From: Candidatus Bathyarchaeota archaeon
Lineage (GTDB): Archaea > Thermoproteota > Bathyarchaeia > Bathyarchaeales > Bathycorpusculaceae
DNA: 64,000 nt
Assembly: GCA_018396705.1 (NCBI GenBank)
Contig: JAGTQZ010000009.1
Location: forward strand, 1-64,000
Direction: 5' to 3'
Shown: positions 40,663-61,741 of the stretch, piece by piece
Layout of the letters: the number at the start of each line of letters is the position of its first letter
Position numbering within the stretch: the first letter of the stretch is position 1
Translations under genes and position numbers: made by a program
Notes under the pieces: generated by a model
The model's database searches: none
What the model saw: only the letters and a program-made list of their open reading frames with translations
What the model was told of the DNA's origin: nothing

Positions 40663-40666
40663 CGTC

Positions 40667-40951: not shown

Positions 40952-40967
40952 TTCATAGGCACCTCCA

Positions 40968-42723: not shown

Positions 42724-42724
42724 T

Positions 42725-44374: not shown

Positions 44375-44743
44375 CAGCCTTAAACCAAATTAAACAGTCA
44401 ACCGTATTTCTTTTCCAATTCGCCAGAATCCGTTGATAAACCTTCCGTATAAAAACAATTAATTACCTTGGTCTTTAGGGTAAGTTAAAAATGTCAAGGT
44501 CGTTGCTATAATCTTAATGAAACATGTAACACCAGAATTGTTGGGCTAAACCATCCGTTGTAAAAACTACGTTTGATTAGTTAAGAAATTAACTACGTAC
44601 AAAACAGTCTATGAAGAATGCCCTTGACCTACGTCACCTGATCTTCAGAAAAACTTAAAATAAAACACCAATAGTGAGTAAAGAAAAAACAATGAATGTT
44701 TCAAGTCAAGAGTTTTTGAGTGCTGGTGAATCATATGTTTTTC
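44375..44743. other. 369-base intergenic region, possible binding-protein relic
   Basis: No intact gene. On the minus strand 44395-44480 reads VINCFYTEGLSTDSGELEKKYG then TGA, closed by a stop a few codons upstream. The ending resembles C-termini of ABC substrate-binding proteins (SGELEKKYG), and its position upstream of the permease gene is where such a gene would lie. The fragment is short and could be chance. The rest is AT-rich, with a promoter expected for the permease gene; no repeat or RNA gene is seen. Confidence 0.3.
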
Positions 44744-45511
44744 TTAAGTAGTTCGATCGAATTTCTTAAGTATCTCTTCGAATATTTTTGAGTGAGTTTC
44801 CTTTCCTTCGTATGATGGAAGGAACCATGTCATTTCCTGCAAGTTTCTGGCGATAACCGGTATCCAATCGTGGGGAATAGATATTATAATGTAACCTTCT
44901 GGAGGTTCTTTCAACACCTTGGAACCGAAAGTCATTCCACTTACTATATAGTTGACTTTTCCGCTAATGTATGGATAGGCAAAAAGCCAAGCACATCCCA
45001 AAACAAACGAGTGTTTAGAAACCCACGGCTCCCCTGTTGAGTAGCTCATAGCTCTCAAGATTAATTCTGCTTGACTAATGTTAGCGGTAACCATCAATAG
45101 GTCAGGGTTAAATGTTAACTTATCAATTGGGGAAAATACTACGTAATTAACAGTACCAGGCTTTAAAAATGGAACGTAGAAATAAAGTCTTGCATTAGCC
45201 CGCGGGTCTTGAAAAATCTTTAATTCAGGTCCTATTAGACCGCTTTCAGCGAAGGGTGGAAAACTCTCCATTCCTAGAACTTTTTTACCATAGCAATCCT
45301 CATTTTCCTTCCCTATGTAAAACGGCTGACCTGTTTTTTGCGCTTCACCTAGACACTCGCAGAGTTTTAATTCTTTGCTTAGCTGTTTGAAACCTTCCGG
45401 CTTCAAATACGAAAATTTTACACCAACCGGCTTTCTCTCTAAGTTAAGTTTATCAAACATCTCTAAGTAAGACATGTTATATTTTTGTTTATTTTTCATA
45501 TTTTCCCTCAA
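44744..45511 (-). CDS. DUF169-family protein
   Basis: A 255-residue protein. LERKPVGVKFSYLKPEGFK near residue 24 is the DUF169 start (RkPVgVkf). It continues with CECLGEAQKTGQPFYIGKENEDCYG, a Cys-bearing loop, and GFP-like MESFPPFAESGLIGPELKIF. Later come YVVFSPIDKLTFNPDLLMVTA and LGCAWLFAYPYISGKVNYIVSGMTFG, both family features. DUF169 proteins are common in anaerobes and their function is unknown. The conserved Cys residues suggest metal binding (inference). The start may also be the Met at residue 5 or 13. It opens the catabolic island on the minus strand, downstream of the SDR gene. Confidence 0.8.
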   Translation of the reverse strand: MRENMKNKQKYNMSYLEMFDKLNLERKPVGVKFSYLKPEGFKQLSKELKLCECLGEAQKTGQPFYIGKENEDCYGKKVLGMESFPPFAESGLIGPELKIFQDPRANARLYFYVPFLKPGTVNYVVFSPIDKLTFNPDLLMVTANISQAELILRAMSYSTGEPWVSKHSFVLGCAWLFAYPYISGKVNYIVSGMTFGSKVLKEPPEGYIIISIPHDWIPVIARNLQEMTWFLPSYEGKETHSKIFEEILKKFDRTT

Positions 45512-45630
45512 GGTAGCTGAGATGTATCAAATTCTGTTTATTTAAGTCTTGCGTTTTTTGAGGTAAGAGATATTAAAAAATACAATAAAAAACAGAAAGA
45601 AAATTTCAACATTTCTCAACGATTTGAGTT

Positions 45631-46395
45631 TTACTGGGCCGTGAACCCCCCGTCAACAACGATGTTTATTCCAGTTATGTGTGAAGCGTCGTCGGACAAT
45701 AAAAACGCGATAACCGACGCTATTTCATCAGCCGTAGCTAACCTATTCAATGGTACTGATTGTCGCAATTTTTCTGCATGCTCAGGAGTTTCCTTCCAAA
45801 TTGATTGTAGGAGTGGTGTATTAACGAAGCCGGGAGAAATAGAGTTTACCCTTATGTTGTACTTGGCGTAATCCACTGCAAATAACCTCGTAACGGAAAG
45901 CAAGGCTCCTTTGCTGGCAGTATATCCTACACCAGGGAGAGCTACACACGCTGCAACCGACGATAGATTAACAATTGAGCCTTTACCGGACTCAATCATG
46001 TATGGCAGAGCATATTTAGTGCACAAAAGGACACCCATAAGATTCACACGTAAAATTTTTTCCCACACTTCCGGCTTACCTTCATGAACTAACCTCGTGT
46101 CATTTGCGGGGTCAATGATTCCTGCGTTATTAACTAAACCCTGTATTAAACCTAAATCCGATACTATCCGCTTAAAGACTTCTTTGACGTCCTTTTCTTT
46201 ACTAACATCCATGTGGTAATATTTAGCTACAAGATTTTTTCCGCGCAGGTCTTTAACAACTTCTCCCCCAAGTCCATCTTGCACATCGCAAACAGCTACT
46301 TTTGCCCCTTCGCTGGCACATCTAATAGCGGTTGCCTTTCCAATACCACTGGCACCTCCGGTGACAACAACAACCATTCCCTCCAATCTTTTCAT
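45631..46395 (-). CDS. Short-chain dehydrogenase/reductase
   Basis: A 254-residue classical SDR. The cofactor motif is VTGGASGIGKATAIRCA near residue 11, and CDVQDGL after strand 2 puts an acidic residue where NAD is preferred. NNAG lies near 88, the catalytic Ser is in NLSSVAACVALPG, the Tyr-Lys pair in YTASKGALL, and SPGFVNTPLL and GINIVVDGGF close it. Substrates could be a secondary alcohol/ketone or a 3-hydroxyacyl-CoA. In this island, oxidation of an alcohol to the ketone used by the carboxylase is an attractive guess. Confidence 0.92.
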   Translation of the reverse strand: MKRLEGMVVVVTGGASGIGKATAIRCASEGAKVAVCDVQDGLGGEVVKDLRGKNLVAKYYHMDVSKEKDVKEVFKRIVSDLGLIQGLVNNAGIIDPANDTRLVHEGKPEVWEKILRVNLMGVLLCTKYALPYMIESGKGSIVNLSSVAACVALPGVGYTASKGALLSVTRLFAVDYAKYNIRVNSISPGFVNTPLLQSIWKETPEHAEKLRQSVPLNRLATADEIASVIAFLLSDDASHITGINIVVDGGFTAQ

Positions 46396-46632
46396 TTTGT
46401 CTTCCTCCTAAAAGTTCTAACATTCTGTATTTCAACTTATTAATTTAATGTTCGTATATAGCTTTTGCTATTAGCTTCTTAAGTCGTTTGAGTTACTTAG
46501 CAGAGATGTTAACTTAGCCATAATCAAGTCTTCGTTTCATACACAATTTTTAAAAGTGTTATAAGATTTTATAATCATGGTGTTATGATGTTATATTAAA
46601 AAATAAAATGAAATGAGAAGAGTTGATTTAAG

Positions 46633-47988
46633 ATGGATCCAAAAGAAGAGTACAAGAAAAAATTGAGATCACCTGAAGACGTTGCAAAGCTAATAACGCC
46701 CGGCATGTGGCTAGGAATGGGTAACCTTTCTGCTATCGGATGGCTTTTCGAAAAAGCTTTAGCTGAAAGGTTGTCAGAGCTGGAGGATATTAAATTATGG
46801 CTTGAGATACCGCTTAAACCACTAAAATGTCTCGAAAAAGACAAAGAGGGGAGGGTCTTTTCAGTATATACAGGATTTTTAAGCGAATTTTTACGTGGAA
46901 GACCAAAAGTCTATTATTGGCCAGGACAGTTGGGACAGTACCCGCATTTGTTTAGAGAGGGCTATCTAAAGGTTGATGTAGCCATTAAAACCGTAACACC
47001 GATGGATAAGAGAGGTTTCTTCAACTTTTCCACAGACATTACTTACAGCAGGGCAATGTTCGAGTCGGCAAAGATAAAAATTGTTGAGGTGAATGAAAGC
47101 TTTCCTTGGGTTCCAGGAGGTTACGATGAATGCATACATGTCTCTGAAGTCGATTATATTATAGAAAACCATGAGGACAAAATTTTTGAATTACCGATAC
47201 GGCCTCCATCAGATATAGAGAATAAGATAGCCGAAAATATTCTTAATATTTTGCCAAAACCGCTTGACGGTCTGACATTGCAAATTGGCATAGGGGGGCT
47301 TCCTGATGCGGTCTGTAGGATGCTGGAGGAAATGGGTGCTAAAGACTTAGGGGTACACTCGGAAATGTTAAGCGAAGGTATATTCAGGCTCGCAGAAGCA
47401 GGTATAATAACTGGTAGGAAGAAAAGTTTCTTGCCTGGGAAGATTGTACATACATTCGCCTTGGGAAGTAGGAAAATGTATGATTGGTTAGATCATAATC
47501 CAATGGTAGCTGGATATCCGTCTGACTTCGTTAATGACATAGTGGTAATAGCCCTAAATCATAAGGTAGTTTCCATAAATTCAGCTCTAGAAGTTGATTT
47601 GACAGGACAAGTCAACGCTGAATCTATTGGGCCTATGGAGTTTTCAGGGGTTGGGGGGCAATCTGCTTGGACTTATGCCCCCTCTTATCGTTCTCCGAAA
47701 GCTATGCCACCAATAGGCTGGCCTTCAAGTATTTCAATTATTGCATTACCATCAACATATTTTGATAAAAAAACTAATCAATTGGCCTCTAGAATAGTTC
47801 CTATGTTAAGACTCGGAAGCGCGGTGACAACGCAAAGGACAAACACGATGTATGTGGTCACGGAATACGGTGCAGCCAAACTAAAAGGCAAAAGCGTTAA
47901 AGAAAGAGCCCAAGAACTCATCAAAATAGCGCATCCAGATTTCAGAGAGCAGCTAACTAAGGAAGCAGAAAAGCTTGGTTTTATCTGA
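46633..47988 (+). CDS. Acetyl-CoA hydrolase/transferase-family CoA-transferase
   Basis: A 451-residue protein. Its N-terminal domain starts YKKKLRSPEDVAKLITPGMWLGMGN. The second domain has LQIGIGGLPDAVCRMLEEMG near 217 and, near 317, NSALEVDLTGQVNAESIG, in which the Glu of the E-x-DLTGQ motif is the expected catalytic residue. GVGGQSAWTYA follows and the end is TEYGAAKLKGKSVKERAQEL. Family members move CoA between acetyl-CoA and acids such as 4-hydroxybutyrate, succinate or propionate. Here it could activate a keto acid such as acetoacetate (inference). It is 17 bases upstream of the thiolase gene. Confidence 0.9.
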   Translation: MDPKEEYKKKLRSPEDVAKLITPGMWLGMGNLSAIGWLFEKALAERLSELEDIKLWLEIPLKPLKCLEKDKEGRVFSVYTGFLSEFLRGRPKVYYWPGQLGQYPHLFREGYLKVDVAIKTVTPMDKRGFFNFSTDITYSRAMFESAKIKIVEVNESFPWVPGGYDECIHVSEVDYIIENHEDKIFELPIRPPSDIENKIAENILNILPKPLDGLTLQIGIGGLPDAVCRMLEEMGAKDLGVHSEMLSEGIFRLAEAGIITGRKKSFLPGKIVHTFALGSRKMYDWLDHNPMVAGYPSDFVNDIVVIALNHKVVSINSALEVDLTGQVNAESIGPMEFSGVGGQSAWTYAPSYRSPKAMPPIGWPSSISIIALPSTYFDKKTNQLASRIVPMLRLGSAVTTQRTNTMYVVTEYGAAKLKGKSVKERAQELIKIAHPDFREQLTKEAEKLGFI

Positions 47989-48005
47989 AAGCGGAGGATT
48001 TAAAG

Positions 48006-49205
48006 TTGCGCAATGTAGCCGTGGTAGGAGTTGGCCATAGCCAGTTTGGCAGCAGGTTTGATGTGAGAATTGAAGAATTAGCCTTCGAAGCTGTGAAAGA
48101 GGCTATGGAAGACGCTAACATTGAGGCTAAGGATATAGAGTTCTTAGTACTTGGGTGTGCTGGTGTTTGGAGTGCCGAAGATTCTCCAGCTTTTATTTGC
48201 TCAGATTATTGCGGGATTCTCCCCAAAGGCAGTATGCGGGTTGAAGCTATGTGTGCTACTGGAAGTGCCGCAACGTTTGTTGGATATAATGCTGTTGCCA
48301 GCGGATTTGCAGATTTAGTGCTAGTTCTTGGAGTTGAAAAGATGCATGAACTGCCCAGTTTACTTCAAGTAGAGCGAATGGGTAGAGGAGGAAGCTTCCT
48401 TTGGGAATTTGAAAACTTTGGATTAACTTTTCCAGGGTACTATGCGTTGCATGCAACTCGTTACATGTCACAATACGGTTTGAAAGAAGAGGACCTGGCT
48501 GAAGTCGCAGTAAAAAATCATTACTATGGCGCAATGAATCCCAAGGCGCAGTTTAGGAAAACCATAACGGTTGAGATGGTTATGCAGTCAAGATATGTTG
48601 CCTGGCCGTTAAAACTTTTTGACTGTTGTCCATTAACAGACGGTTCATGCGCATTGTTGCTGGCAAGTGAAGACATCGCCAAGAAACTGACTGATACTCC
48701 AATATGGATAAGCTCTATTGGCGTTTCGACGGGAGAAAGTACATTGAGCGCACGACCAGATTACTGTGGTTTTGGCAGTGCTGTAGAAGCTGCAAAGCAA
48801 GTTTACAAAATGGCTGGCATAGATTCTGATAAGCCTTTCAAGCACTTGGACGTTGTGAATGTGCATGATTGTTTCACGATAGCCGAAATCATGGCTTACG
48901 AGGATTTGGGATTCTGCAAAAGAGGGGAGGGTGTAAAACTCGTGAGGGAAAAACAGACATATAATGGCGGTATTATCCCAGTTAACATGGATGGAGGTTT
49001 AAAGGCCAAAGGTCATCCTATAGGCGCCACTGGTTGCTCAATGATTTACACGTTAACAAAACAACTTAGACAAGAATATGGTAAATATGCAAATCCCTCT
49101 GCACAAGTTACTATCAGAAATGGTAGGGCGCTAGCCCATAATATCGGGGGAGCTGGCCATTATGCGTATGTAACGTTGCTTTCACTCGAAAAACCAAGTA
49201 GATGA
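48006..49205 (+). CDS. Thiolase-family acetyl-CoA acyltransferase
   Basis: A 399-residue protein of the archaeal SCP2-like thiolase group. VAVVGVGHSQFGSR starts it, and the nucleophilic Cys83 is in EAMCATGSAATFVGYN. The catalytic His are in DVVNVHDCFTIAEI and KAKGHPIGATGCSM, and GGAGHYA closes it. It cleaves or makes beta-ketoacyl-CoA such as acetoacetyl-CoA. The TTG start is preceded by GCGGAGG. The DUF35 gene follows after 13 bases; such pairs work as a thiolase/OB-fold complex in archaea. A role in mevalonate synthesis is possible, but no HMG-CoA synthase gene is present. Confidence 0.92.
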   Translation: MRNVAVVGVGHSQFGSRFDVRIEELAFEAVKEAMEDANIEAKDIEFLVLGCAGVWSAEDSPAFICSDYCGILPKGSMRVEAMCATGSAATFVGYNAVASGFADLVLVLGVEKMHELPSLLQVERMGRGGSFLWEFENFGLTFPGYYALHATRYMSQYGLKEEDLAEVAVKNHYYGAMNPKAQFRKTITVEMVMQSRYVAWPLKLFDCCPLTDGSCALLLASEDIAKKLTDTPIWISSIGVSTGESTLSARPDYCGFGSAVEAAKQVYKMAGIDSDKPFKHLDVVNVHDCFTIAEIMAYEDLGFCKRGEGVKLVREKQTYNGGIIPVNMDGGLKAKGHPIGATGCSMIYTLTKQLRQEYGKYANPSAQVTIRNGRALAHNIGGAGHYAYVTLLSLEKPSR

Positions 49206-49218
49206 GGAAGGTGGTAAA

Positions 49219-49728
49219 TTGTCCGAGTTGTTTGAAAAAGCTAAAGAGAATATAAAAACGAAAGGTTTACCAATAGTCGAAGATGAAAGAACCTTAATGC
49301 CGCTATACATAAGTCTGCGTGTGTTTCCGCTTAGATATCAAATAGGAATAGCAAAAATCCAAAAGTTTTTTGAAGGACTTAAAAAAGGCAAGGTTTATGC
49401 AACTCAATGTAACAAATGTGCTAAAAAATTCTTTCCGCCACGTGCAGTTTGTCCTACATGCCTAAACTCCAATGTAAGCTGGGTTGAAGTGAATTGTGAA
49501 GGAGAACTTTTAACGTATACCATAATAACTGTCAAGCCTCCATCATTTGCCCATTACAAAGATTACGTGGTAGGCATAGCCCAACTTAAAGATGGACTAA
49601 AGGTCCTAGCATGGGTTAACGTGGATGATCCAAAGAAGTTAAAGCCTGGGACACAAGTACGTCTAACTACAACAAAAAGGGATCCTGAAGGATATGTAAC
49701 ATATGAATTAGTTCCGATATCCCTCTAA
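49219..49728 (+). CDS. Zn-ribbon/OB-fold (DUF35) acyl-CoA-binding protein
   Basis: A 169-residue protein. An N-terminal helical part precedes the zinc ribbon CNKCAKKFFPPRAVCPTC (residues about 66-83). The OB fold then has CEGELLTYTIITVKPPSFAH, YVVGIAQLKDGLKVLAWVNV and PGTQVRLTTTKRDPEG. In archaea, DUF35 proteins bridge thiolase and HMG-CoA synthase and hold the CoA arm. Here only thiolase is next to it, so it probably serves that enzyme. The start is TTG at 49219 after GGTGG. Confidence 0.9.
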   Translation: MSELFEKAKENIKTKGLPIVEDERTLMPLYISLRVFPLRYQIGIAKIQKFFEGLKKGKVYATQCNKCAKKFFPPRAVCPTCLNSNVSWVEVNCEGELLTYTIITVKPPSFAHYKDYVVGIAQLKDGLKVLAWVNVDDPKKLKPGTQVRLTTTKRDPEGYVTYELVPISL

Positions 49729-49777
49729 CTTTTAAGTATGTAAAAACTTAAATTTTATTTGTTCATAAAATAATTGT

Positions 49778-50332
49778 ATGGCCAAATCTGAAGAATTTAA
49801 AATTTTAAACAAGGCTTACGAACTTGGCTTTAAATATGAGAAGTTCAACAAGAATTGTGCTCAATGTACTTTTGCCGCTGTTTTAGACGCCTTAAACGTT
49901 GATTATGACGAAAAAACGTTTAAAGCTACCACTGGACTCGGTGGAGGCGGCGGGTTGACTGGAAGCGGGTCTTGTGGGGGTTTTTCGGGCGGTGCTATGG
50001 CGATAGGTTATATACTTGGAAGGGGACTGGAAGGCTTTAGGAACCTTAAGGCAAAACCCGATGAATGCTTACGTGCTTTGGTCTTAGTAAAAAAGCTGCA
50101 TGACAAATTTATTGAGAGCTATGGAAGTATACTGTGTTGTGACGTGCAGAAAAAAATGTTTGGAAGAACTTTTCAAATGATTAAGCGGGAAGGAGATAAG
50201 ATAATAATAACGATGGATGAATTTGAAAATGCTGGTGCACATGCAGATAAGGGGTGTCCCGTGGTAGTTGGGATGGCTGCAAGGTGGACTGTGGAGATTT
50301 TATTACGTGAGATAACTAAAAATGAACTTTAG
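49778..50332 (+). CDS. C_GCAxxG_C_C-family protein
   Basis: A 184-residue protein with the family's Cys/Gly pattern. NCAQCTFAAVLDALNV near residue 28 supplies the first Cys pair, GLGGGGGLTGSGSCGGFSGG near 57 the glycine-rich centre with Cys, and ILCCDVQKKMFG near 125 and KGCPVVVGMAAR near 161 the later Cys. Members may bind a metal or undergo disulfide exchange; the biochemical function is not established. It has AT-rich promoter-like sequence before its ATG and separates the thiolase genes from the carboxylase genes. Confidence 0.8.
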   Translation: MAKSEEFKILNKAYELGFKYEKFNKNCAQCTFAAVLDALNVDYDEKTFKATTGLGGGGGLTGSGSCGGFSGGAMAIGYILGRGLEGFRNLKAKPDECLRALVLVKKLHDKFIESYGSILCCDVQKKMFGRTFQMIKREGDKIIITMDEFENAGAHADKGCPVVVGMAARWTVEILLREITKNEL

Positions 50333-50390
50333 ATGTTTTCCCAAGAAAGGTTTAGACAAAATTATCATTTGTAATGAAAGTGTAGGCAAA

Positions 50391-50399
50391 GCTTAAAAG
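50391..50399 (+). promoter_or_regulatory. TATA-like box before the carboxylase operon
   Basis: GCTTAAAAG at 50391-50399 would start transcription around 50420, leaving a 5' leader of about 30 bases that contains the GAGGTTGAAGG ribosome site before ATG 50451. A second AT-rich stretch at 50417-50426 is an alternative. Confidence 0.35.
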
Positions 50400-50450
50400 T
50401 TGAAGGAAATATTTTTCTTAAATATATTCTGTATTTACGAGGTTGAAGGC

Positions 50451-52589
50451 ATGGTCTCGGTTGACAAAATACGGGATGTAATCATTATTTCTATTGATGC
50501 TGGGGGAACAATGACTGATTGTATCGCGGTGAGAGAGGACGGCTCATTTTTACTCGGAAAGGCGTTGACAAACTACGCGGACGAATCATACAGTTTTGGT
50601 GAAAGTATAAAAGATGCTTTAAATGACAAATCCCCAGATTTATCGCGCTTAAGGATCTGCGCATACGCTGGAACTTTGCTGCTTAACGCTGTGTTAACAC
50701 GCAGAGGCCTAAAAACTGGTTTATTGACAACAAGAGGATTTGAGCATCTCATCTACTTCATGCGGGGGCACTCATGGCTAGGGTACTCATACGTGGACAA
50801 ACTTCATTCTGTCACCCACATCTATCCAGACGTGTTCCCAGGGCCTCTAGTTCCAGTGGACCTAATAAAAGGTGTTAATGAACGTATAGATACAAATGGT
50901 CGCATAGTTATACCGCTGAATGAAGAAGACGTAAAAAGAGGGGTTAACGAGCTTTTGGATAAAGGTTGCCAATCCATTGCGGTGAGTTATCTCAACTCCA
51001 CAATGAATCCAGTTCATGAGATTAAGACAAGAGAAATAGCTAAGGAAGTTATTAATGAACGAGGGTTAAATGTTCATGTTGTTTTGTCTTCAGAAGTTTC
51101 TCCTAGAGGTAAAGAGACCGAGCGCACTGTCAGTACTGTTATTCAAGCTTTTGCTGCTGAACCAGCGGCTAATCAACTTTTGAGAGTTGAGACCAAAGCC
51201 AGAGAGATGGGTTTTAAAGGAAACTTATACACGGTCCTTTCCTATGGAGGTTTAGTTGACATTAGATATCCTAGGCTATATGAAACTCTCATAAGCGGAC
51301 CAATAGGCGGGGTTCTGGGATCTAAGTTCGTTGGCGATATTCTCGGCGAAAAAAACATTGTAGCCACTGATTTAGGTGGAACGAGCTTTGACGTTGGAAT
51401 AATTAAAGATGGCATAATACACATAGAAAGAGAACCAGAAGTGGCCCGTTACATGCTTAGTCTTCCAATGGTGCGTACCGACTCCATAGCCGCGGGTGCG
51501 GGCATGGTCGTACGTGTGGATCCAGTTTCCAAACTTATAACTTTAGGTCCTGAAAGCGCTGGTTACCGTGTAGGCATATGCTTGGATTATCATGAAGTTA
51601 CAATAAGCGATTGTAACGTGGTTTTGGGCTATTTAAACCCCAACTACTTCCTGGGAGGTAAAGTAAAATTGAATAGAGATAAGGCATTAAAAGCTATCGA
51701 AGAAAAGATTGCGCAACCCTTAGGTCTTGATGTTTACAATGCTGCCTACCTAGCTATTGCATCATTGCATGCTAAAATGAGTGACTGGCTTAATGCCACA
51801 TTAATGGCGAGAGGTTACACACCCTTAGACTATATACTTCTATGCTATGGTGGCGCCGGGCCTCTTCACATGTGGGGATTTGACGTAATACCCTTCAAAG
51901 ATTATATAACCTTCAAGTTTGCAGCCGGTTTCTCAGCTTTTGGAAATTCTACGGTGGACTATATGATTAGGGAGCATAAGAGCGTGAACATCAGTATTCC
52001 CCCAAATCCAGATGCTGAAACAATTATGAAGGTTGGAGAGCATTTAAATAGCGCATGGGAAGACCTCGAAAACAGGCAAATGAAAATACTAACTTCCCAA
52101 GGATTTTCAACGGAACAAATAATCATCAAACAGATTGCCTATATGAGGTTTGCGGGACAATTGGAGGATCATGAAGTATTTTCACCCAGAAGCAGAATTT
52201 TGAAACCCGAAGATTTCGATGACTTAATGAAGGCTTTTGAAAGCGTCTACACATCTATATATCCAAAGGCAGCCTTATTCCCTGAAGCTGGAATTGTCAT
52301 AAAAGAAGTGGCTACCTTAGCTTTAGTAACCGGAATGCCCAAACCGAAAATAATTAAGAAGCCACTAAGTGGTGAAAAGCCTCCAGAGAGCGCATTCAAA
52401 GGTCAACGTGAAGTTTTCTACGAGAAAAACTGGGTGACCTTTGATGTTTGGGAAATGGATCCACTTCAACCTGGCAACAAAGTGTATGGTCCTGCAATAA
52501 TTGAACATCCCATGACAACTCTTGTTGTACCTCCACAAAGAAGGATCTACATTGACGAATATGAGTTTATTCACTATTCTAGGAGGTGA
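50451..52589 (+). CDS. Acetone carboxylase beta-like subunit (hydantoinase A/oxoprolinase family)
   Basis: A 712-residue protein, close to the usual length of AcxA. The ASKHA-type ATP site starts IISIDAGGTMTDCIAV near residue 10. YETLISGPIGGVLGSKFVG near 280 and ATDLGGTSFDVGII near 305 complete it, and YGGAGPLHMW lies near 463. Such subunits activate the substrate by phosphorylation with ATP. Relatives act on hydantoin, oxoproline or ketones; the companion alpha and gamma genes favour a ketone carboxylase. I chose ATG 50451, after GAGGTTGAAGG, over the open frame from 50400. The alpha gene starts 3 bases after its stop. Confidence 0.85.
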   Translation: MVSVDKIRDVIIISIDAGGTMTDCIAVREDGSFLLGKALTNYADESYSFGESIKDALNDKSPDLSRLRICAYAGTLLLNAVLTRRGLKTGLLTTRGFEHLIYFMRGHSWLGYSYVDKLHSVTHIYPDVFPGPLVPVDLIKGVNERIDTNGRIVIPLNEEDVKRGVNELLDKGCQSIAVSYLNSTMNPVHEIKTREIAKEVINERGLNVHVVLSSEVSPRGKETERTVSTVIQAFAAEPAANQLLRVETKAREMGFKGNLYTVLSYGGLVDIRYPRLYETLISGPIGGVLGSKFVGDILGEKNIVATDLGGTSFDVGIIKDGIIHIEREPEVARYMLSLPMVRTDSIAAGAGMVVRVDPVSKLITLGPESAGYRVGICLDYHEVTISDCNVVLGYLNPNYFLGGKVKLNRDKALKAIEEKIAQPLGLDVYNAAYLAIASLHAKMSDWLNATLMARGYTPLDYILLCYGGAGPLHMWGFDVIPFKDYITFKFAAGFSAFGNSTVDYMIREHKSVNISIPPNPDAETIMKVGEHLNSAWEDLENRQMKILTSQGFSTEQIIIKQIAYMRFAGQLEDHEVFSPRSRILKPEDFDDLMKAFESVYTSIYPKAALFPEAGIVIKEVATLALVTGMPKPKIIKKPLSGEKPPESAFKGQREVFYEKNWVTFDVWEMDPLQPGNKVYGPAIIEHPMTTLVVPPQRRIYIDEYEFIHYSRR

Positions 52590-52592
52590 AAA

Positions 52593-54779: not shown

Positions 54780-54790
54780 GAGGTGAAAAA

Positions 54791-55285
54791 ATGGCTGTTT
54801 CTTACCCTGAAGAAGTGATAAAGAAACTTGTTAATCGAGAACTTCCGTGGGAAGATTTGAGAAGAATTATGTCTTCATTTAAGGATGCCGACCGCTTTGA
54901 AAAATATATCAAAGTTCTACAGGAACAGACTGGATGGCGGGAGCCTATAGTACTACCGTTAACAGAACATCTAATGATCGTTAACAAGGATGAAAAGCTG
55001 ATAATAAAAGCCCTGTGTGGATATGAGCTTGGAGATTACAGAGATAACTGGAAACTTAAAGTTTTGATCCACGTCAGGAATTCGGTTGAAAAGTTCAAGG
55101 AGATCTATCCAGATCCACTAATACCTGACCCTAACTGGTGCGAAATACGAGAATTCATATGCCCTGGCTGCGGAACATTATTGGATGTGGATGCGGTTCC
55201 TCCCGGATATCCTATAATTAAAGAATTCGAACCAGACATTGAAACTTTCTATACAAAATGGTTGAAAAAGCCATTACCAAAATAA
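54791..55285 (+). CDS. Acetone carboxylase gamma-like subunit
   Basis: A 164-residue protein, matching the length of AcxC. Helical start EEVIKKLVNRELPWEDLRRI, middle KALCGYELGDYRDNWKLKVL, and the diagnostic C-terminus FICPGCGTLLDVDAVPPGYP followed by ETFYTKWLKKPLP. The CPxCG pair and PPGYP stretch are specific to acetone carboxylase gamma subunits, and this is the best evidence that the operon is a carboxylase rather than a hydantoinase. AGGAGGTG precedes the ATG. Confidence 0.87.
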   Translation: MAVSYPEEVIKKLVNRELPWEDLRRIMSSFKDADRFEKYIKVLQEQTGWREPIVLPLTEHLMIVNKDEKLIIKALCGYELGDYRDNWKLKVLIHVRNSVEKFKEIYPDPLIPDPNWCEIREFICPGCGTLLDVDAVPPGYPIIKEFEPDIETFYTKWLKKPLPK

Positions 55286-55293
55286 TCTAAAAC

Positions 55294-55315
55294 TTCTTTT
55301 ATTATTCTTTTTATT
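55294..55315 (+). terminator. T-rich tract after the carboxylase operon
   Basis: TTCTTTTATTATTCTTTTTA lies 9 bases after the gamma-subunit stop, in the gap to a convergent gene. U-rich 3' ends without a hairpin are the usual archaeal termination signal. Confidence 0.45.
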
Positions 55316-55337
55316 ATGCCATTGTCAATTCGTGAAT

Positions 55338-56201
55338 CTATCTTTGTGTTAGTTCGGTGTATGTTTCAGGGCGTCTATCCTCAAATATGGTTCTAACCCC
55401 CATGCATAGATTTTTTAATGAAGACAGATCTAATGTAGCGATGGCAACTCCTTCTTTGTCGTCTAACGGTCCAGCGTATATGTGATAGCTCATTTTGCCA
55501 GGCTTTGGTCCAATTATCATACTATGTCCAAAGTAGCTGAATTCTCCTTGTCTTCCGACCATATTAGCGCTTGCAATAAACATGTTATTTTCGATGGAGC
55601 GTGCTCCAAGAGTTGTGGTATAAAAGTCTAAATAATCATCTGCATCTGGAAATCGTGGGAACGCTGTAATATTTAGATGTATCCTGGCCCCTCTTGTTGC
55701 GTAGACTCTAGGGACTTCTGGAAAACAATAGTTATCGTAACATATGCCTATTCCGATTAAACCCCAGGGAGTTTGGATCACTGGGTATGAATTACCCGGT
55801 GTAGCCCATTTTTCTGCAAATTTAGCTGGATGGACTTTACGGTAAACGCCTAGGATTCCTGTAGGACCTATGAATGGCACGGCATTATAAAGCTTTGAAC
55901 CGTTCCTTTCTATCATTCCAAACGCGACATAGACCTTATGTTCAGCTACAATTTTTTGAACGGCATTTGTCGAAGGCCCTGGGATGGGTTCTGAAAGCTC
56001 GTTGGCCATTTCTGGAGGAAAACCACTATAACTTGTTAAGGCCAACTCGGGAAAGACGATAATGTTGGCCCCCCTCTCCGCTCCCTCAACAATGAAGTGC
56101 TCAATTTTTTTCAACGTGGCAGCTTTATCCGGCTTTAGCCCGTCAATCACGGGTTCGAAGTTTACAACAGCAATCTTAACAATATCTCGGTGAGATAACA
56201 T
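55338..56201 (-). CDS. Carbon-nitrogen hydrolase (nitrilase/amidase superfamily)
   Basis: A 287-residue protein with the Glu-Lys-Cys triad: Glu in IIVFPELALTSYSGFPPE near residue 52, Lys in GVYRKVHPAKFAE near 120 and Cys in GIGICYDNYCFPEVPRV near 153. The family hydrolyses amides, nitriles or carbamoyl compounds. FPELALTSY and the ICYD motif fit aliphatic amidase or carbamoylase-like branches. Between the carboxylase genes and the Liv importer it may supply the organic acid or ketone precursor from an imported amide (inference). The ATG is at 56201. Confidence 0.9.
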   Translation of the reverse strand: MLSHRDIVKIAVVNFEPVIDGLKPDKAATLKKIEHFIVEGAERGANIIVFPELALTSYSGFPPEMANELSEPIPGPSTNAVQKIVAEHKVYVAFGMIERNGSKLYNAVPFIGPTGILGVYRKVHPAKFAEKWATPGNSYPVIQTPWGLIGIGICYDNYCFPEVPRVYATRGARIHLNITAFPRFPDADDYLDFYTTTLGARSIENNMFIASANMVGRQGEFSYFGHSMIIGPKPGKMSYHIYAGPLDDKEGVAIATLDLSSLKNLCMGVRTIFEDRRPETYTELTQR

Positions 56202-56351
56202 ATCTTCTTTTATCTCCTTGCATGCTAATAACTATAAAAAACTATTTAAATTAAAATGTTGCTAATCTACGGAAAAGTTTATATCTTACTTTTCTTTTGC
56301 AATAAAACTTTTATAGTTCTTGTTTTCCAACGTAATAGACTGGGGATTATC

Positions 56352-57608
56352 GTGAAAAGCAGAGCCGTAACTAAAATGCAAGCAATTATAATTGCCGTGA
56401 TAATTGTTGTTGTTATAATCGCTGGTGGGGTCTATTACTTCTACCAAACTCAAAAGGGTGCAAAGGAAAAAGTGGTAATAGGGTATGTCGACGCGTTTAC
56501 TGGAGTATTCGCTCCGGGGCCGGAGACATGGGGTACAATATGGATGGAGATCCTTATTGACGAATATAATAAGGCCGGCGGTCTTTATGTCCCCGAATAT
56601 GGCAAAAAATTACCTATCGAGTTTATAAAGTATGACTCAAAAAGTGATACGGAGACACTTATTAGGCTTACAGAAAAGTGTATGAGCGAAGACATGGTTG
56701 ACCTAATGTTTGCGCCATGGGGAACTTCTCAAAACTTTGCCGTTCTGCCGTTATATGAAAAATATGGATATCCGTTGATAGCCCATGCCATGGGAAGTGG
56801 TCAAGTAGTAGACCTTATACTCTCCGGTGGAACAAAATGGGTTTTTCCTGTACTGTGCCAACCACCATTTGTAGCTAAGTATGTGGCAGATTTCCTTGTA
56901 TGGGCAAATGCATCTCGCATAGGCATCATTGGCATAAGTGATTTACACGGCATAGAATTTACAGGGCGGCTGGCGTCGGAGTTGGCACAGAGAGGCATTA
57001 CTCCAGTAGTTGGACCGGAGCTTTATCCATTGACGGTTACTGATCTATCGCCATTAATCAGGAAGCTTAAAGAGGCCAATGTGGACGCTTTGTGGGCGTC
57101 CACTTACCCGGCGGATGGGACTCTATTAATAAGGCAGTGTATGGAGCTTAGTTATGTTCCTAGAATAATGTTCATGGGTCCTGGCTCCCAATATCCGGCG
57201 ATAATGGTGCCCGCCTTTGGTGTTAAAGCAATGACAGGAATTATGGAGTACCACGGATTTGAAGTGGATTATAAAAGTTCTACAAAGCTGCTTGAACTTG
57301 CCGAAAAATATAAAGCGAAAGTTGGTTATTATCCTGGGGCCAACACTATAGCAGCTTACGTTTGCCATCAAGTGCTTTTCAAAGCCGTAGAAAAGTATGG
57401 CCTAGACAGAGTTAAAATTAGAGACGCCTTTTTGGCTGGTGAAACTTTCGACACTGTAGTTGGGCCAGCAAAGTTTGATACGTCAAATGTTTACTTAGAC
57501 GCTCCAGGGGCTGGCTACATTTGTCAATGGCAAGGCGAAGAGATACTGAAGGTTGTGTGGCCTTTGAACAGAGCCACCGCGCAATGGATTCCTAAAACTT
57601 CGTGGTAA
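56352..57608 (+). CDS. Liv-type ABC importer substrate-binding protein
   Basis: A 418-residue protein. A short basic start (KSRAVTK) is followed by the hydrophobic helix MQAIIIAVIIVVVIIAGGVYYF, which acts as signal anchor. The periplasmic-binding fold starts VVIGYVDAFTGVFAPGPETW and continues ADFLVWANASRIGIIGISDLH and APGAGYICQWQGEEIL. Homologues bind branched-chain amino acids, amides or urea; the ligand is not readable here. I chose the GTG at 56352, since the open frame upstream would place extra hydrophobic sequence before the basic stretch. Two permease genes follow. Confidence 0.88.
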   Translation: MKSRAVTKMQAIIIAVIIVVVIIAGGVYYFYQTQKGAKEKVVIGYVDAFTGVFAPGPETWGTIWMEILIDEYNKAGGLYVPEYGKKLPIEFIKYDSKSDTETLIRLTEKCMSEDMVDLMFAPWGTSQNFAVLPLYEKYGYPLIAHAMGSGQVVDLILSGGTKWVFPVLCQPPFVAKYVADFLVWANASRIGIIGISDLHGIEFTGRLASELAQRGITPVVGPELYPLTVTDLSPLIRKLKEANVDALWASTYPADGTLLIRQCMELSYVPRIMFMGPGSQYPAIMVPAFGVKAMTGIMEYHGFEVDYKSSTKLLELAEKYKAKVGYYPGANTIAAYVCHQVLFKAVEKYGLDRVKIRDAFLAGETFDTVVGPAKFDTSNVYLDAPGAGYICQWQGEEILKVVWPLNRATAQWIPKTSW

Positions 57609-57629
57609 AGACTTTCGGAGTGTTTTTAA

Positions 57630-58514
57630 TTGGTAACCCCTTCTCTTTTTTTGGACATAATTGTCGGTGGTGTCATTTTAGGAGCATTCTACTCGTTGAT
57701 AGCGGTAGGACTTAATTTGCAATATGGGGTTACGCGTATACTTAACGTTGCACATGGAGAATTTTTGATGCTAGGCGCTTACCTAACTTATTTCTGTTTC
57801 ACACTATTTGGAATGAATCCTTTTGTATCCATAGTCATCGTTGGACCTTTGATGTTTTTTGTCGGACTATTTGTATATGTGCTAATACTTCGTAGGGTGG
57901 TGAAACTATCAAAGTCATCTGAAGAGCTTGAGTTTAGATCTTTACTAATATGTTTCGGCCTTTCTTTTGTCATCCAAAACTTAGCTATGGTTTTATGGAC
58001 AGCAAATTACAGAGGTTATGAAGTGCCTTCGCTTGGAATAATGACTATTTGGGGCGTGAGTTTTGAAGTTAATAGGATAATTATCGCTTTAATATCAATC
58101 GCTATCAATGTTTTCCTTTATGTGTTTTTGCGATTCACAAAGACAGGCTTAGCCATGCGAGCCATGGTAAGCCAGCCTGAAGGAGCTCAGCTTGTTGGCG
58201 TTAATCTTAATCATATCTACGCCGTATCATTTGGCCTTGGCATTTTATTCAGCGCTTGGGCAGGCGCTCTGACAAGTGTTCTGTATTCTACAATAAATCC
58301 ATTTATGGGGGTTCCATATACATTAATCAGCTTAGTATTAGTAATTCTGGCTGGTGTCGGCAGTTTTAGAGGTAATGTTGTGGGAGGATTTTTGCTTGGA
58401 TATCTGGCGTATGTCACTATGAGGGTGATACATTCAGCGTTAACTCTTGTTGTTATATACGCCGTTCTGATACTGATACTTCTAGTCAAACCTAAGGGAC
58501 TGTTTACGAGGTGA
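57630..58514 (+). CDS. Liv-type ABC importer permease, LivH-like
   Basis: A 294-residue permease with about eight helices. GVILGAFYSLIAVGLNLQYGVTRILNVAHGEFLMLGAY in outline (residues 14-51) is the classic LivH opening, with GLNLQYGV and LNVAHGEF. The cytoplasmic coupling segment is TKTGLAMRAMVSQPEGAQLVG near 171, followed by GVGSFRGNVVGGFLLG. It pairs with LivM. The TTG start comes 21 bases after the binding-protein stop. The next gene starts 7 bases after its own stop. Confidence 0.93.
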   Translation: MVTPSLFLDIIVGGVILGAFYSLIAVGLNLQYGVTRILNVAHGEFLMLGAYLTYFCFTLFGMNPFVSIVIVGPLMFFVGLFVYVLILRRVVKLSKSSEELEFRSLLICFGLSFVIQNLAMVLWTANYRGYEVPSLGIMTIWGVSFEVNRIIIALISIAINVFLYVFLRFTKTGLAMRAMVSQPEGAQLVGVNLNHIYAVSFGLGILFSAWAGALTSVLYSTINPFMGVPYTLISLVLVILAGVGSFRGNVVGGFLLGYLAYVTMRVIHSALTLVVIYAVLILILLVKPKGLFTR

Positions 58515-58521
58515 ATTCTAG

Positions 58522-59424
58522 TTGGTTAGAGTAACGAACAATGTTTACTTGAAAATTTCTCCCTTGGTAATTTTTGCACTGTTAATGGTTGCTCCGTTCT
58601 TCATGGTGAGATATCACTTAGCATTGTTAACCAGCGTCCTATGCTGGATTGGGTTGACTGTTAGCTGGCACTTTTTTAGTGGCGTTACAAAATATGTCTC
58701 ATTGGGTTCCGCTGCGTTTTTTGGAGTTGGGGTATATATAACGGCCATATTCTGTAGGACGCTAGCTTTTCCGCTCATCTTATTGTTAGCTGGTGTAATT
58801 AGCTTTTTATTTGCATGCGGCGTCGGTTTCGTCACTTTGAGAATGAAAGGTGTATTCTTTGCTATATTCACTTTTGGACTGGCCGAGCTTTTAAATAATG
58901 CAATATTATTCTGGGAGATGTCTGTAACTGGGACACGGGGTAGGTTCATTACGCCTTTTGACGTTTATTATCCAATACTCATAATTACTTTTGCCATCAT
59001 CTTGTTTACAACTATTTTAAGAAAGTCAAAGTTGGGCCTTGCGCTAAGGATGATCGGTGAATGTGAGGACGCTGCTATTCATTTCGGCGTAAATGCTACG
59101 TTATATAAGGTTCTTGGGTTTGCCGTGAGTAGCATGTTCATCGGCCTATTGGGCGCGTCGTTTGCACCCCGGTGGGGGTACGTGGATTCGGGTATAGCTT
59201 TTAACAGTTTATACTCATTTATGCCTGCGATAATGACGTTATTCGGTGGAACGGAACTGTACTTTGGACCTATCGTAGGTGCTTTAGTTCTCTCATTACT
59301 GGAAGAGTATCTGCTTACCACTTTTAAGGACTATTTCATGATAATCTTAGGATCAATAATGATTCTTATCATCCTCGTTTTACCTGAAGGAATAACTGGG
59401 AAACTTTTAAAGAAAGCTGATTAA
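58522..59424 (+). CDS. Liv-type ABC importer permease, LivM-like
   Basis: A 300-residue permease with eight to nine helices. SGVTKYVSLGSAAFFGVGVY near residue 53 is the LivM hallmark, followed by RMKGVFFAIFTFGLAELLNN near 110, the coupling loop KLGLALRMIGECEDAAIHFGV and SFMPAIMTLFGGTELYFGP. The TTG start follows LivH closely. Its stop codon TAA (59422-59424) overlaps the stop of the convergent livF-like gene within the palindrome TTAA. Confidence 0.93.
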   Translation: MVRVTNNVYLKISPLVIFALLMVAPFFMVRYHLALLTSVLCWIGLTVSWHFFSGVTKYVSLGSAAFFGVGVYITAIFCRTLAFPLILLLAGVISFLFACGVGFVTLRMKGVFFAIFTFGLAELLNNAILFWEMSVTGTRGRFITPFDVYYPILIITFAIILFTTILRKSKLGLALRMIGECEDAAIHFGVNATLYKVLGFAVSSMFIGLLGASFAPRWGYVDSGIAFNSLYSFMPAIMTLFGGTELYFGPIVGALVLSLLEEYLLTTFKDYFMIILGSIMILIILVLPEGITGKLLKKAD

Positions 59425-60125
59425 ATTCCCAAGAATGCCTCTCTAATATATTCGTTCCCAAAAAGTTCCGCGCTTTTACCATGAAGTGTTACTTTTCCAG
59501 TCTCCATTACATAAACGCGGTCGGCAATGTTTAGGGCGACGTGAACATTTTGCTCGGCCAGCAGGACGCTAATACCGTAGTCTCTAAGTTTTTTTAAGGT
59601 CTTAAGCACCTCCATAGTCATTTTGGGTGACAGTCCTTGTGAAGGTTCATCCAGTATTAATAATCTGGGGCTCGACATCAGACTTCGGGCTATAGCTAGC
59701 ATTCTTTGCTCACCACCGCTTAATGTGGCGGATAACTGATTTTCTCTCTCCTTTAACAGCGGAAATATCTGATAAACAGTTTCAAGCATGCTTTTTGTAT
59801 GCCTTTTTTCTTTCGATGTATATGCGCCAAGAAGCAAATTTTCTCGTACTGTGCAGTTAGTAAACAATTTTCTATCCTCGGGTACAAATGAGACTCCTAG
59901 TTTTACAATTTTATGTGGTGGCAAGCCAGTAATTTCTCTGTCGTTAAAAAGAATCGTGCCGGATAATGGTTTAAGTATCCCAGCTATAGTGCTCAAAAGT
60001 GTTGTTTTTCCAGCTCCATTTGAACCTATTAAAGCTACGATTTCCTCTTTTTGAACTTTTATTGAAACGTCCCACAGAACGTGTAAGCCTCCGCGGGCTA
60101 CATTTAAATCTTTAACTTCCAACAT
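59421..60125 (-). CDS. Liv-type ABC importer ATPase, LivF-like
   Basis: A 234-residue ATPase. It starts MLEVKDLNVARGGLHVLWDVS. Walker A is ALIGSNGAGKTTLLSTIAGI, and GVSFVPEDRKLFTNCTVRENL is the LivF-type Q-loop region (VPEdR). The signature is LSGGEQRMLAIARSLM and Walker B LLILDEPSQGLSPKM; the tail RVYVMETGKVTLHGKSAELF is typical. I chose ATG 60125; the open frame to 60149 would extend into livG. It overlaps livG by 14 bases. Unlike the permease genes it is on the minus strand. Confidence 0.93.
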   Translation of the reverse strand: MLEVKDLNVARGGLHVLWDVSIKVQKEEIVALIGSNGAGKTTLLSTIAGILKPLSGTILFNDREITGLPPHKIVKLGVSFVPEDRKLFTNCTVRENLLLGAYTSKEKRHTKSMLETVYQIFPLLKERENQLSATLSGGEQRMLAIARSLMSSPRLLILDEPSQGLSPKMTMEVLKTLKKLRDYGISVLLAEQNVHVALNIADRVYVMETGKVTLHGKSAELFGNEYIREAFLGI

Positions 60126-60846
60126 ATGCCTCCCCAAGGTAAGCTTCAATAACTTTTATGTCTTTACTTACTTCTTCAGGTTTACCGTCAGCTATCTTCA
60201 TCCCCTGATTGAGTACAATGATGCGGTCAGACACCCCCATTATTACACGCATGTTATGTTCGATCATAAAAATTGTAATTCCGCTATCTCGTAGTTCTTT
60301 AATTATCTTAACTGCTTGAGTTGCCTCCTTGGGATTCAATCCAGCCATCACCTCATCAAGTAACAGAAGCTTTGGTTTAGTTGCTAATGCTCTTGCAATT
60401 TCAAGCATTCTTTGCTCAAACACTGCCAAATTTGAGGCTGACGTTTCACTTTTGCTTGTTAATCCAAATTTTTCCATTATTTGATGGATCTCTTGCTTTA
60501 AGTTAGAAGATTTATCGCTTTTATCTCGTCCGAAAGTTGCCGCCGCAAGTATGTTCTCATATACACTCATGCGAGGGAATGGCTTAGGTACTTGAAATGT
60601 TCTAGCTATTCCTAACTTACAAATTTTGTGTGCCCCAAGGCCGGTTATGTTTCTTCCTTCAAATTTGATAACCCCTGATGTGACTGGGATGGCACCGGTT
60701 ATCACGTTGAAAAGAGTAGTTTTTCCCGCTCCGTTTGGGCCGATCAAGCCTACAATTTCGCCTTCATTTACACAAAAATCCACGTTGTATAAGGCGGTGA
60801 GCCCTCCAAAACGTCTAGTAACCTTTATTCCTTCAAGAATTTTCAT
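60112..60846 (-). CDS. Liv-type ABC importer ATPase, LivG-like
   Basis: A 244-residue ATPase. Walker A is GLIGPNGAGKTTLFNVITGA. ICKLGIARTFQVPKPFPRMSV is the LivG Q-loop region, the signature is a weak ASNLAVFEQRMLEIARALA lacking the usual SGG, and Walker B is LLLLDEVMAGLNPKEATQ, a LivG form (DEvmaGL). ITIFMIEHNMRVIM holds the switch His, and IKVIEAYLGE ends it as in the family. It heads a two-gene minus-strand transcript with livF. Confidence 0.93.
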   Translation of the reverse strand: MKILEGIKVTRRFGGLTALYNVDFCVNEGEIVGLIGPNGAGKTTLFNVITGAIPVTSGVIKFEGRNITGLGAHKICKLGIARTFQVPKPFPRMSVYENILAAATFGRDKSDKSSNLKQEIHQIMEKFGLTSKSETSASNLAVFEQRMLEIARALATKPKLLLLDEVMAGLNPKEATQAVKIIKELRDSGITIFMIEHNMRVIMGVSDRIIVLNQGMKIADGKPEEVSKDIKVIEAYLGEAYVGS

Positions 60847-61219
60847 AAATTCAAAGTTACTTTAGGGTCATATAAAAATCTTCTTATTACATTCTTCTCT
60901 GAGAAAGTCAGCCTTAAAGGAGCCTAAATCCAACACTTTCTATAGCATGGTTACAGATAATATGTGTTTTTCAAGCTATCATTTTTGCATGTGGTGCTCA
61001 AACAGTAACATCTCATATAAGAGATTGATTGAGTGTCAGTTCGCCCGTCGTCGAGTCATATCACAGCCGATAGGCTCTATTGACTCTCTGGATCATCATC
61101 CAAAGATACAGAAGCAATACGCCTTTTTAGTTTTTTCCTCGATTTTGCCGGTCCGCTAAAACTACATGCAACAAGCTTTATTTAGACACTTTGTATAGTC
61201 TGTTAAACGGGTGTAACAC
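60847..61219. other. 373-base intergenic region between livG and a nitroreductase gene
   Basis: Both neighbours point away, so two promoters should lie here; AT-rich stretches occur near 60870-60890 (minus strand) and 61170-61200 (plus strand). A 70-residue open frame at 60947-61159 has a Cys/His/Ser-rich, non-domain sequence and I consider it chance. No repeat or RNA gene is seen. Confidence 0.35.
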
Positions 61220-61741
61220 ATGGATGTTTTTGAAGCCATTAAAGGAAGGCGTAGTATTCGAGCTTTTCAAGAGGCGGATGTCCCTAAAGAAATTGTTGAA
61301 AAGCTTATTGAGGCTGCCATGTGGGCACCATCTGCTGGAAATATTCAGCCATGGGAGTTTGTTATTGTTAGAAACTCTGAAACAAAGAGGAGGTTAGCTG
61401 AGGCTGCTTTGGGGCAGTCCTTTATCGAGGAGGCTCCGGTTGTAATTGTTGTATGTGCTGATGAAGAGCGTTCAGCACGTGGTTATGGGACAAGGGGTAG
61501 AACGCTCTACTGTATACAGGATACGGCTGCAGCCATACAGAACATTCATTTGGCAGCTTATTCCCTGGGCTTAGGTACGTGCTGGGTTGGCGCTTTCAGA
61601 GAGGACGAGGCAAGAAAGATCTTGGGTATTCCAGAGGGTCTGAGGCCGGTGGCCATAATACCCGTCGGCTATCCAGCTGAATCTCCGCAGCCGAGAAGCA
61701 GACGACCATTAAAGCAGATAATCCATTATGAGAAGTTTTAA
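61220..61741 (+). CDS. Nitroreductase-family FMN oxidoreductase (short form)
   Basis: A 173-residue protein, shorter than the paralogue at 2339-2962. MDVFEAIKGRRSIRAFQEAD has the FMN-phosphate RRSIR motif, MWAPSAGNIQPWEFVIV the second motif, and IQDTAAAIQNIHLAAYSLGLGTCWVG the dimer and flavin region. Electron transfer from NAD(P)H is expected; the substrate is unknown. GGGTG precedes the ATG. The DNA ligase gene follows about 100 bases downstream on the same strand. Confidence 0.92.
   Translation: MDVFEAIKGRRSIRAFQEADVPKEIVEKLIEAAMWAPSAGNIQPWEFVIVRNSETKRRLAEAALGQSFIEEAPVVIVVCADEERSARGYGTRGRTLYCIQDTAAAIQNIHLAAYSLGLGTCWVGAFREDEARKILGIPEGLRPVAIIPVGYPAESPQPRSRRPLKQIIHYEKF

Follow-up and report, generated by a model that had tools for sequence, protein, structure and literature searches.

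A predicted ketone carboxylase of the acetone carboxylase branch, encoded on a genomic island of a Bathyarchaeota archaeon

Does a group of archaeal genes resembling those of bacterial acetone carboxylase (AC) encode such an enzyme or one of the related ATP-dependent hydantoinases, into which pathway would it feed, and how did it come to lie where it does? We addressed these questions for a locus of a Candidatus Bathyarchaeota archaeon (assembly GCA_018396705.1), situated near one end of a 222-kb contig (JAGTQZ010000009.1), whose initial 64,000 nucleotides are together referred to as the window. The genome comprises 1.71 Mb in 9 contigs and is 96.7% complete, and the host is an archaeon, given that the window itself encodes glycerol-1-phosphate dehydrogenase, an archaeal proteasome beta subunit and aCPSF1, each scoring above the curated cut-off. 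Gene families were named with Pfam and NCBIfam profiles and structures with PDB sequence matches. A preliminary description of this DNA had read three consecutive genes as AC subunits at the centre of a catabolic island, and we followed up this reading.

Identity of the carboxylase subunits

The three genes encode, in this order on the forward strand, a beta-type subunit (AcxA; HydA-like, ATP-binding, Hydantoinase_A family, 712 residues; 50451 to 52589), an alpha-type subunit (AcxB; HydB-like, carrying the metal site, Hydantoinase_B family, 728 residues; 52593 to 54779) and a gamma subunit (AcxC; Acetone_carb_G, PF08882 at 1.3e-41, 164 residues; 54791 to 55285). The beta length of 712 residues requires the ATG at 50451, as the longest open reading frame (ORF) begins with TTG at 50400. 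The best PDB match of every subunit was AC from Xanthobacter autotrophicus (Xa), aligned over the full length (beta to 5m45_B, 7.5e-170; alpha to 5m45_A, 2.7e-126; gamma to 5svb_C, 2.5e-42; identities of 41%, 33% and 43%), followed by acetophenone carboxylase (Apc) with 4e-114, 2e-51 and 6e-11, respectively; hydantoinase and caprolactamase likewise scored far worse than AC. Because all three subunits gave full-length matches with E values below 1e-40, chance is excluded, and the assignment as AC beta, alpha and gamma stands. The alpha gene is the single Hydantoinase_B gene of the genome.

Gene order, subunit lengths and tree position distinguish the AC, Apc and hydantoinase branches (PMC5214803). 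At the present locus, the order is acxA-acxB-acxC with the gamma gene downstream and gaps of 3 and 11 bp. ACs have an AcxB of about 720 residues, a long AcxA and a gamma subunit with about 50 extra N-terminal residues relative to Apc gamma, and hydantoinases lack both the gamma subunit and the long AC-type subunits (PMC5214803). With 728, 712 and 164 residues, the window proteins follow the AC pattern, and residues 5–163 of gamma align to Xa residues 3–163 but to Apc gamma from residue 58 only. The predicted fold points in the same direction: the alpha structure modelled with AlphaFold2 (pLDDT 81, pTM 0.84) and compared with Foldseek reached a TM score of 0.90 to 5m45_A, 0.74 to Apc and 0.62 to caprolactamase B. 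In a tree of alpha subunits for which Apc and archaeal hydantoinases served as outgroups, the window protein grouped with the ACs (SH-aLRT 99) and not with the hydantoinases.

In Xa AC alpha, whose residue numbering is used here, manganese is bound by E89, H150, D153 and H175 (PMC12250083; PMC5543143), and the window alpha keeps all four ligands as E76, H137, D140 and H162, with H98 corresponding to Xa H111. Since Apc and hydantoinases have the His/Asp/His ligands as well, the distinction lies in Xa position 89, where the window alpha has the glutamate of ACs and the other two groups have aspartate. The Xa E89A variant yields no acetoacetate (PMC12250083). Sequence, tree, predicted fold, lengths, gene order and metal ligands together thus support an AC-type enzyme rather than a hydantoinase.

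An alternative is an ATP-dependent amidohydrolase, in which a cyclic amide would be imported, its ring opened by the HydAB-like pair, a carbamoyl or amide group removed by the nitrilase-family protein encoded nearby, and the resulting acid degraded by CoA-dependent enzymes. The pairing of hydantoinase and N-carbamoylase is classical and speaks for this scheme, as do the intact Glu-Lys-Cys triad motifs of that protein, a nitrilase-superfamily amidase (carbon-nitrogen hydrolase, 287 residues, reverse strand, 55338 to 56201; PF00795 at 6.9e-47; 4.6e-31 to PaNit, 3ivz), and an importer binding protein that is nearest, weakly, to urea-binding proteins. We nevertheless regard it as very unlikely: tree and fold place the enzyme on the AC branch and not with hydantoinases or caprolactamase, a gamma subunit and long AC-type subunits are present, position 89 holds Glu and not Asp, and the nitrilase gene lies outside the operon. 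More generally, a hydantoinase, caprolactamase or Apc identity was ruled out by family profiles, PDB matches, tree and fold. Features of ATP-dependent hydantoinases, oxoprolinases and caprolactamases were not found, as shown by the gamma subunit, the separate tree branch and the TM score of 0.62 against 0.90. Those of Apc were likewise missing, with one HydA-like gene in the cluster, hence no second kinase subunit alpha', and ApcC and ApcD NCBIfam models far under cut-off. Apc (PDB 5l9w) does have homologous HydA-like, HydB-like and gamma subunits, but differs in its alpha' and epsilon subunits (order apcABCD(E)), its shorter gamma, the aspartate at the E89 position and a branch of its own.

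A cluster of Apc type does occur in another archaeal genome (L102, contig G305:C3, 827–6501, reverse strand), where genes for an ApcD-like protein (1e-135 to 5l9w_A), a HydA-like protein and a short gamma lie beside one for a beta-keto acid cleavage enzyme (BKACE), which suggests that carboxylation yields a beta-keto acid and that BKACE then cleaves it.

Phylogenetic position and known relatives

Within the AC branch, the window alpha forms a lone deep lineage, basal to the clade of characterised ACs. A concatenated tree of the three subunits agreed. The AU test rejected a grouping of the window enzyme with the remaining archaeal ACs from its phylum and class (p-AU 1e-8), and with it a single archaeal origin of all ACs in the phylum. 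When the tree was extended by haloarchaeal, Sinorhizobium meliloti and further Chloroflexota copies, the haloarchaeal ACs nested among bacterial ones (100/100), and the order of the window among the other deep lineages was not resolved (81/71, 80/63). The highest alpha identities to the window were about 39–41% in the sampled sequences, and no closer relative turned up among 400 genomes from the phylum to which L041, a Dehalococcoidia locus, belongs (best 38%). The bacterial AC loci came from a genome scan with two peptide patterns, of which the best 80 hits, all bacterial, were kept; given this uneven sampling, closer relatives may exist.

Compared to the Xanthobacter AcxABC complex (PDB 5svb, 5svc, 5m45), the window enzyme shows the same gene order and lengths, metal ligands and alpha fold. 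It differs in lying outside the characterised clade, in an alanine replacing gamma Cys74, in not keeping the E85/N578 pair, and in having a CoA-transferase and a thiolase/DUF35 pair for downstream steps in the same operon. Two loci from genomes of the same phylum (L103 in G412 and L101 in G378) are likewise archaeal ACs with Ala74 in gamma and a link to 3-oxoacid activation, but they use acetoacetate-CoA ligase instead of a CoA-transferase, belong to another AC lineage and have the alpha gene before beta. Haloarchaeal plasmid ACs (Natronorubrum, Halococcus, Natrinema) share archaeal hosts, an annotated AC gamma and a full metal site, whereas they fall within the bacterial ACs and have acyl-CoA ligase, alcohol dehydrogenase and transposase genes as neighbours. 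On the plasmids of Natronorubrum aibiense (L161) and Halococcus dombrowskii (L162), a complete AC operon is followed, after a few kb, by a second AC alpha gene, and a helix-turn-helix gene is nearby.

The AC-like operons of Dehalococcoidia (L041, L062) are also deep lineages; the L041 gamma is 56% identical to that of the window, and a 3-oxoacid CoA-transferase is encoded at this locus. Differences are the replacement of H175 by Met, two alpha/beta sets in L041 and the absence of a nearby thiolase/DUF35 match. The two L041 sets lie near each other (100–2307 and 9941–12199), adjoining a gene for a fused 3-oxoacid CoA-transferase. Another deep AC lineage, represented by S. meliloti pSymB (L163, 7986–10178) and L010, carries H150 replaced by Gln and an adjacent SDR gene; many Sinorhizobium plasmids of pSymB type contain this lineage, mostly annotated as hydantoinase B only or left unannotated.

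AC in an archaeon is no novelty by itself, since annotated haloarchaeal plasmid copies exist and two genomes of the same phylum carry it too. What is new is a separate deep archaeal AC lineage, an operon combining it with a CoA-transferase and thiolase/DUF35, and an empty insertion site that could be shown cleanly; the window AC is a diverged representative of a familiar enzyme family whose operon context is new, rather than a novel type of system. In the open-access literature searched, we found no report of AC in this archaeal group, and an aquifer metatranscriptome assigns AC transcripts to Dechloromonas, not Bathyarchaeota (PMC5264521). Tentatively, one might go further and see here a third, independently derived archaeal ketone-carboxylase lineage, predating the divergence of all characterised ACs and using a ketone other than acetone, which with the CoA-transferase and DUF35 thiolase would make up a stand-alone module leading from ketone to acyl-CoA and disseminated as an island in this archaeal group; we regard this as possible, though less likely than not.

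Operon and proposed ketone route

The carboxylase genes close a run of seven genes on the forward strand, in the order CoA-transferase, thiolase, DUF35, C_GCAxxG_C_C, beta, alpha and gamma, with gaps of 17, 13, 49, 118, 3 and 11 bp. Judging by these short same-strand gaps, the carboxylase and the 3-oxoacid enzymes are very probably co-transcribed. The first gene (46633 to 47988) encodes a CoA-transferase of the 4-hydroxybutyrate/butyryl-CoA:acetate type (PF13336, PF02550; 1e-85 to PDB 9vag) with the family fold and the catalytic Glu244 in the motif HSEMLS. It is followed by an SCP2/archaeal acetoacetyl-CoA-type thiolase (48006 to 49205; PRK06064 at 1e-157, above cut-off; 4.5e-67 to PDB 6esq) and, 13 bp downstream, its DUF35 partner (49219 to 49728; ChsH2-type, zinc ribbon and OB fold; PF01796 at 5.5e-16, PF12172 at 1.7e-10). 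Some DUF35-linked enzymes are aldolases (PMC12329534). Because the present thiolase keeps its nucleophile Cys83 (aligned to the 6esq Cys), together with HDCF and GHPIGATG (GHPxGATG) motifs, it should cleave rather than act as such an aldolase. The fourth gene (49778 to 50332) encodes a putative C_GCAxxG_C_C redox protein (PF09719 at 8.5e-20; TIGR01909 above cut-off). On the opposite strand upstream lies an SDR-family dehydrogenase gene (254 residues, 45631 to 46395; PF13561 at 1.4e-66, with many SDR structures matching unspecifically).

Comparable partners adjoin AC genes elsewhere: acetoacetate-CoA ligase in L103, L101 and L007 (above the TIGR01217 cut-off), a 3-oxoacid CoA-transferase in L041, thiolase and DUF35 genes upstream of AC in L101, and SDR genes in L010 and S. 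meliloti pSymB. The presence of AC beside 3-oxoacid-activating enzymes at these loci supports a route from ketone via 3-oxoacid and 3-oxoacyl-CoA to acetyl-CoA in the window as well. The island gene set itself was not conserved across the 80 bacterial AC loci, where matches were scattered and limited to SDR, thiolase and Liv permease/ATPase genes.

Based on these data, we consider it probable, if short of secure, that the locus specifies a carboxylase of aliphatic ketones that belongs to the AC branch and depends on ATP and metal, together with enzymes taking its product into central metabolism. By analogy with the bacterial enzyme, from which we infer substrate, direction, activity and stoichiometry, beta would phosphorylate both bicarbonate and a small ketone at the expense of ATP, the ketone most likely being acetone or butanone. 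The resulting intermediates would move to the alpha metal site (E76, H137, D140, H162) and be joined there to give a 3-oxoacid, for example acetoacetate. Next, the CoA-transferase would shift CoA from an acyl-CoA onto the 3-oxoacid, and the thiolase/DUF35 pair would cleave the 3-oxoacyl-CoA with CoA into acetyl-CoA and an acyl-CoA, giving two acetyl-CoA in the case of acetone. The SDR may oxidise a secondary alcohol to the ketone, or else act as the reductase of a 3-oxo compound. The ketone-to-acetyl-CoA route of the preliminary description is thus plausible, with the operon and the analogous AC neighbours arguing for it. If correct, an uncultured archaeal lineage could use acetone, 2-propanol or related ketones while fixing bicarbonate, an ability missing in its close relatives. 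The locus also shows a complete catabolic unit being acquired as a single insertion, and its divergent enzyme with an intact metal site offers a means of testing which residues govern zinc binding and the range of substrates in ketone carboxylases.

Several observations weigh against this interpretation. The gamma zinc site has three of four cysteines (C76, C124, C127), with Ala at position 74, and the conformational-switch pair Xa alpha-E85/beta-N578 is Lys/Glu here. In the extended tree, the window lies outside the classic, well-sampled AC clade (100/99 for that clade). The CoA-transferase, being of the 4-hydroxybutyrate/butyrate type, misses the TIGR03948 equivalog cut-off (8e-103), and acetone needs no ABC importer such as the one encoded on the island. 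In neighbouring deep lineages, metal ligands have changed (H175 to Met in L041 and L062, H150 to Gln in L010 and L163), so substrate or chemistry may differ; that the window keeps its ligands where some of these neighbours lost one argues for retained carboxylase chemistry, though not for a particular ketone. As for zinc, the cysteine signature is not decisive, AC-branch gammas carrying zero to four of these residues, and Ala74 recurs in L101 and L103. The gamma motif CPGCGTLLDVDAVPPGYP, which had been noted as a C-terminal hallmark, is present, but it starts at C124 and not at the extreme end. In the gammas of L009, L011 and L017, and partly L021, all four zinc cysteines are swapped together for Ser/Ser/Asp/Asp, which means that the zinc site was lost as a unit in some bacteria.

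It is worth weighing the carboxylation of a ketone other than acetone, formed in the cell from a Liv-imported compound that is trimmed by the nitrilase or SDR, with CoA-transferase and thiolase then cleaving a longer 3-oxoacid. The deep, separate AC lineage, the arrival of Liv and nitrilase genes in the same insertion, and the fact that neither the thiolase/DUF35 nor the 4-hydroxybutyrate-type CoA-transferase family is acetoacetate-specific would fit this variant. However, subunit set, lengths and metal site are the same as in acetone carboxylases, and a matching nitrilase is paired with AC at no other AC locus examined; we judge the variant possible, though on the unlikely side.

The importer genes encode a LivK-like binding protein (Peripla_BP_6, PF13458 at 8e-35; 56256 to 57608) and LivH-like and LivM-like permeases (BPD_transp_2, PF02653 at 2.9e-32 and 5.2e-21; 57630 to 58514 and 58522 to 59424) on the forward strand, and LivF-like and LivG-like ATPases (PF00005 at 1.1e-33, 59421 to 60149; PF00005 and PF12399, 60112 to 60846) on the reverse strand. 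The nearest solved structures of the binding protein bind urea or amino acids, the matches being weak. The preliminary description had suggested an imported amide as feed, and this idea found no support: nitrilase and Liv genes form separate, partly opposed transcription units outside the operon, no nitrilase or Liv-binding-protein match was seen beside any other AC locus read, and congener G002 has an identically arranged Liv module (L200, contig G002:C2) adjoining acyl-CoA and corrinoid methyltransferase genes. An amide substrate is conceivable. Relatives of the importer in L200, L201 (G119) and L202 (G150) adjoin genes for URO-D-type methyltransferases, and L200 additionally has a B12-binding corrinoid protein and acyl-CoA genes, hinting that this Liv family may import methylated or carboxylic substrates.

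The operon could also be imagined to run in reverse, the thiolase condensing acetyl-CoA, the CoA-transferase freeing the 3-oxoacid and the carboxylase complex releasing a ketone as fermentation product. Both the thiolase and CoA-transferase reactions are reversible, yet 3-oxoacids decarboxylate without AC. An AC running backwards was raised for an aquifer community in a study which states that no such route is documented in vivo (PMC5264521), and an assimilatory role is described for the AC, with its coupling to ATP (PMC5543143). We regard this direction as very improbable.

The island and its insertion site

The preliminary description had placed the island at 44744–60846. Its genes are indeed there, but the true unit is slightly larger: blastn against the congener loci L105, L106 and L107 revealed matching sequence at 39777–44453 (to 44446 in L106) that resumes at 61034. 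All three congeners (G001, G002 and G003) lack the intervening 16,580 bp (44454 to 61033), with the two flanks five bases apart in G001 and about ten in G002, and G003 likewise without the block. As the flanks adjoin within a few bases, 44454–61033 is a lineage-specific insertion, and the island was inserted in the lineage of this species. It holds fifteen genes, all inside these boundaries, and the ORF list, Pfam and NCBIfam bear out the neighbours as previously named (SDR, acetyl-CoA hydrolase/transferase, thiolase with DUF35, C_GCAxxG_C_C protein, nitrilase and Liv importer). The remaining gene, at the left end, encodes a DUF169 protein (ArCR, COG2043; 255 residues, reverse strand, 44744 to 45511; PF02596 at 1.8e-30); for the DUF169, C_GCAxxG_C_C, nitrilase and Liv proteins, we can infer roles only. 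No integrase or transposase gene was present among the island ORFs, and no direct repeats of at least 10 bp at the island ends apart from one chance match; islands often carry such features but need not do so.

AC gamma was found in one of 151 relatives. In the phylum, six of 398 genomes had it, a pair of these being marginal and with stops, and AC alpha occurred in two of 257 genomes searched of the class. Vertical inheritance within the genus was ruled out by the single occurrence among the 151 relatives and the empty sites in congeners. The island differs in composition from its host, with a tetranucleotide distance of 0.174 as compared to 0.095–0.121 for host segments of equal length. This difference, and the presence of the gene set in one genome only, might indicate foreign DNA misjoined into the contig during assembly or binning. 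Such an artefact is highly improbable, given that both flanks are collinear with the congeners and break at one point inside a 222-kb contig, that the GC content of 0.41 compares with 0.434 in the host, and that relatives of the CoA-transferase and Liv module occur in genomes of the same class. The CoA-transferase relative, in the genome of a family member, is 53% identical, and Liv-module relatives in genomes of the same class are 41–51% identical (41–49% for the module of the same layout in G002). Judging from these identities, the sources of the island genes look mixed.

Just beyond the right end, the insertion point abuts the 3' end of a conserved non-coding element on the reverse strand (61034 to 61102), which shows about 80% identity in the three congeners. 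Copies of about 70 nucleotides lie at approximately 4734–4800 in L105, 7820–7885 in L106 and 5105–5170 in L107. The element carries AUGAUGA near its 5' end and CUGA near its 3' end, forms a stable hairpin (fold z-score -2.6) and gave no match in an Rfam search. It is probably a small RNA, and by its motifs may be C/D-box-like. In the congeners, a NIF3-like gene, accompanied in two of them by a 129-residue gene without Pfam family, lies between this element and a nitroreductase gene (L105 4824–6124 and equivalents). Both are missing at the corresponding site of the window (61143–61220), and the insertion site has thus also lost DNA.

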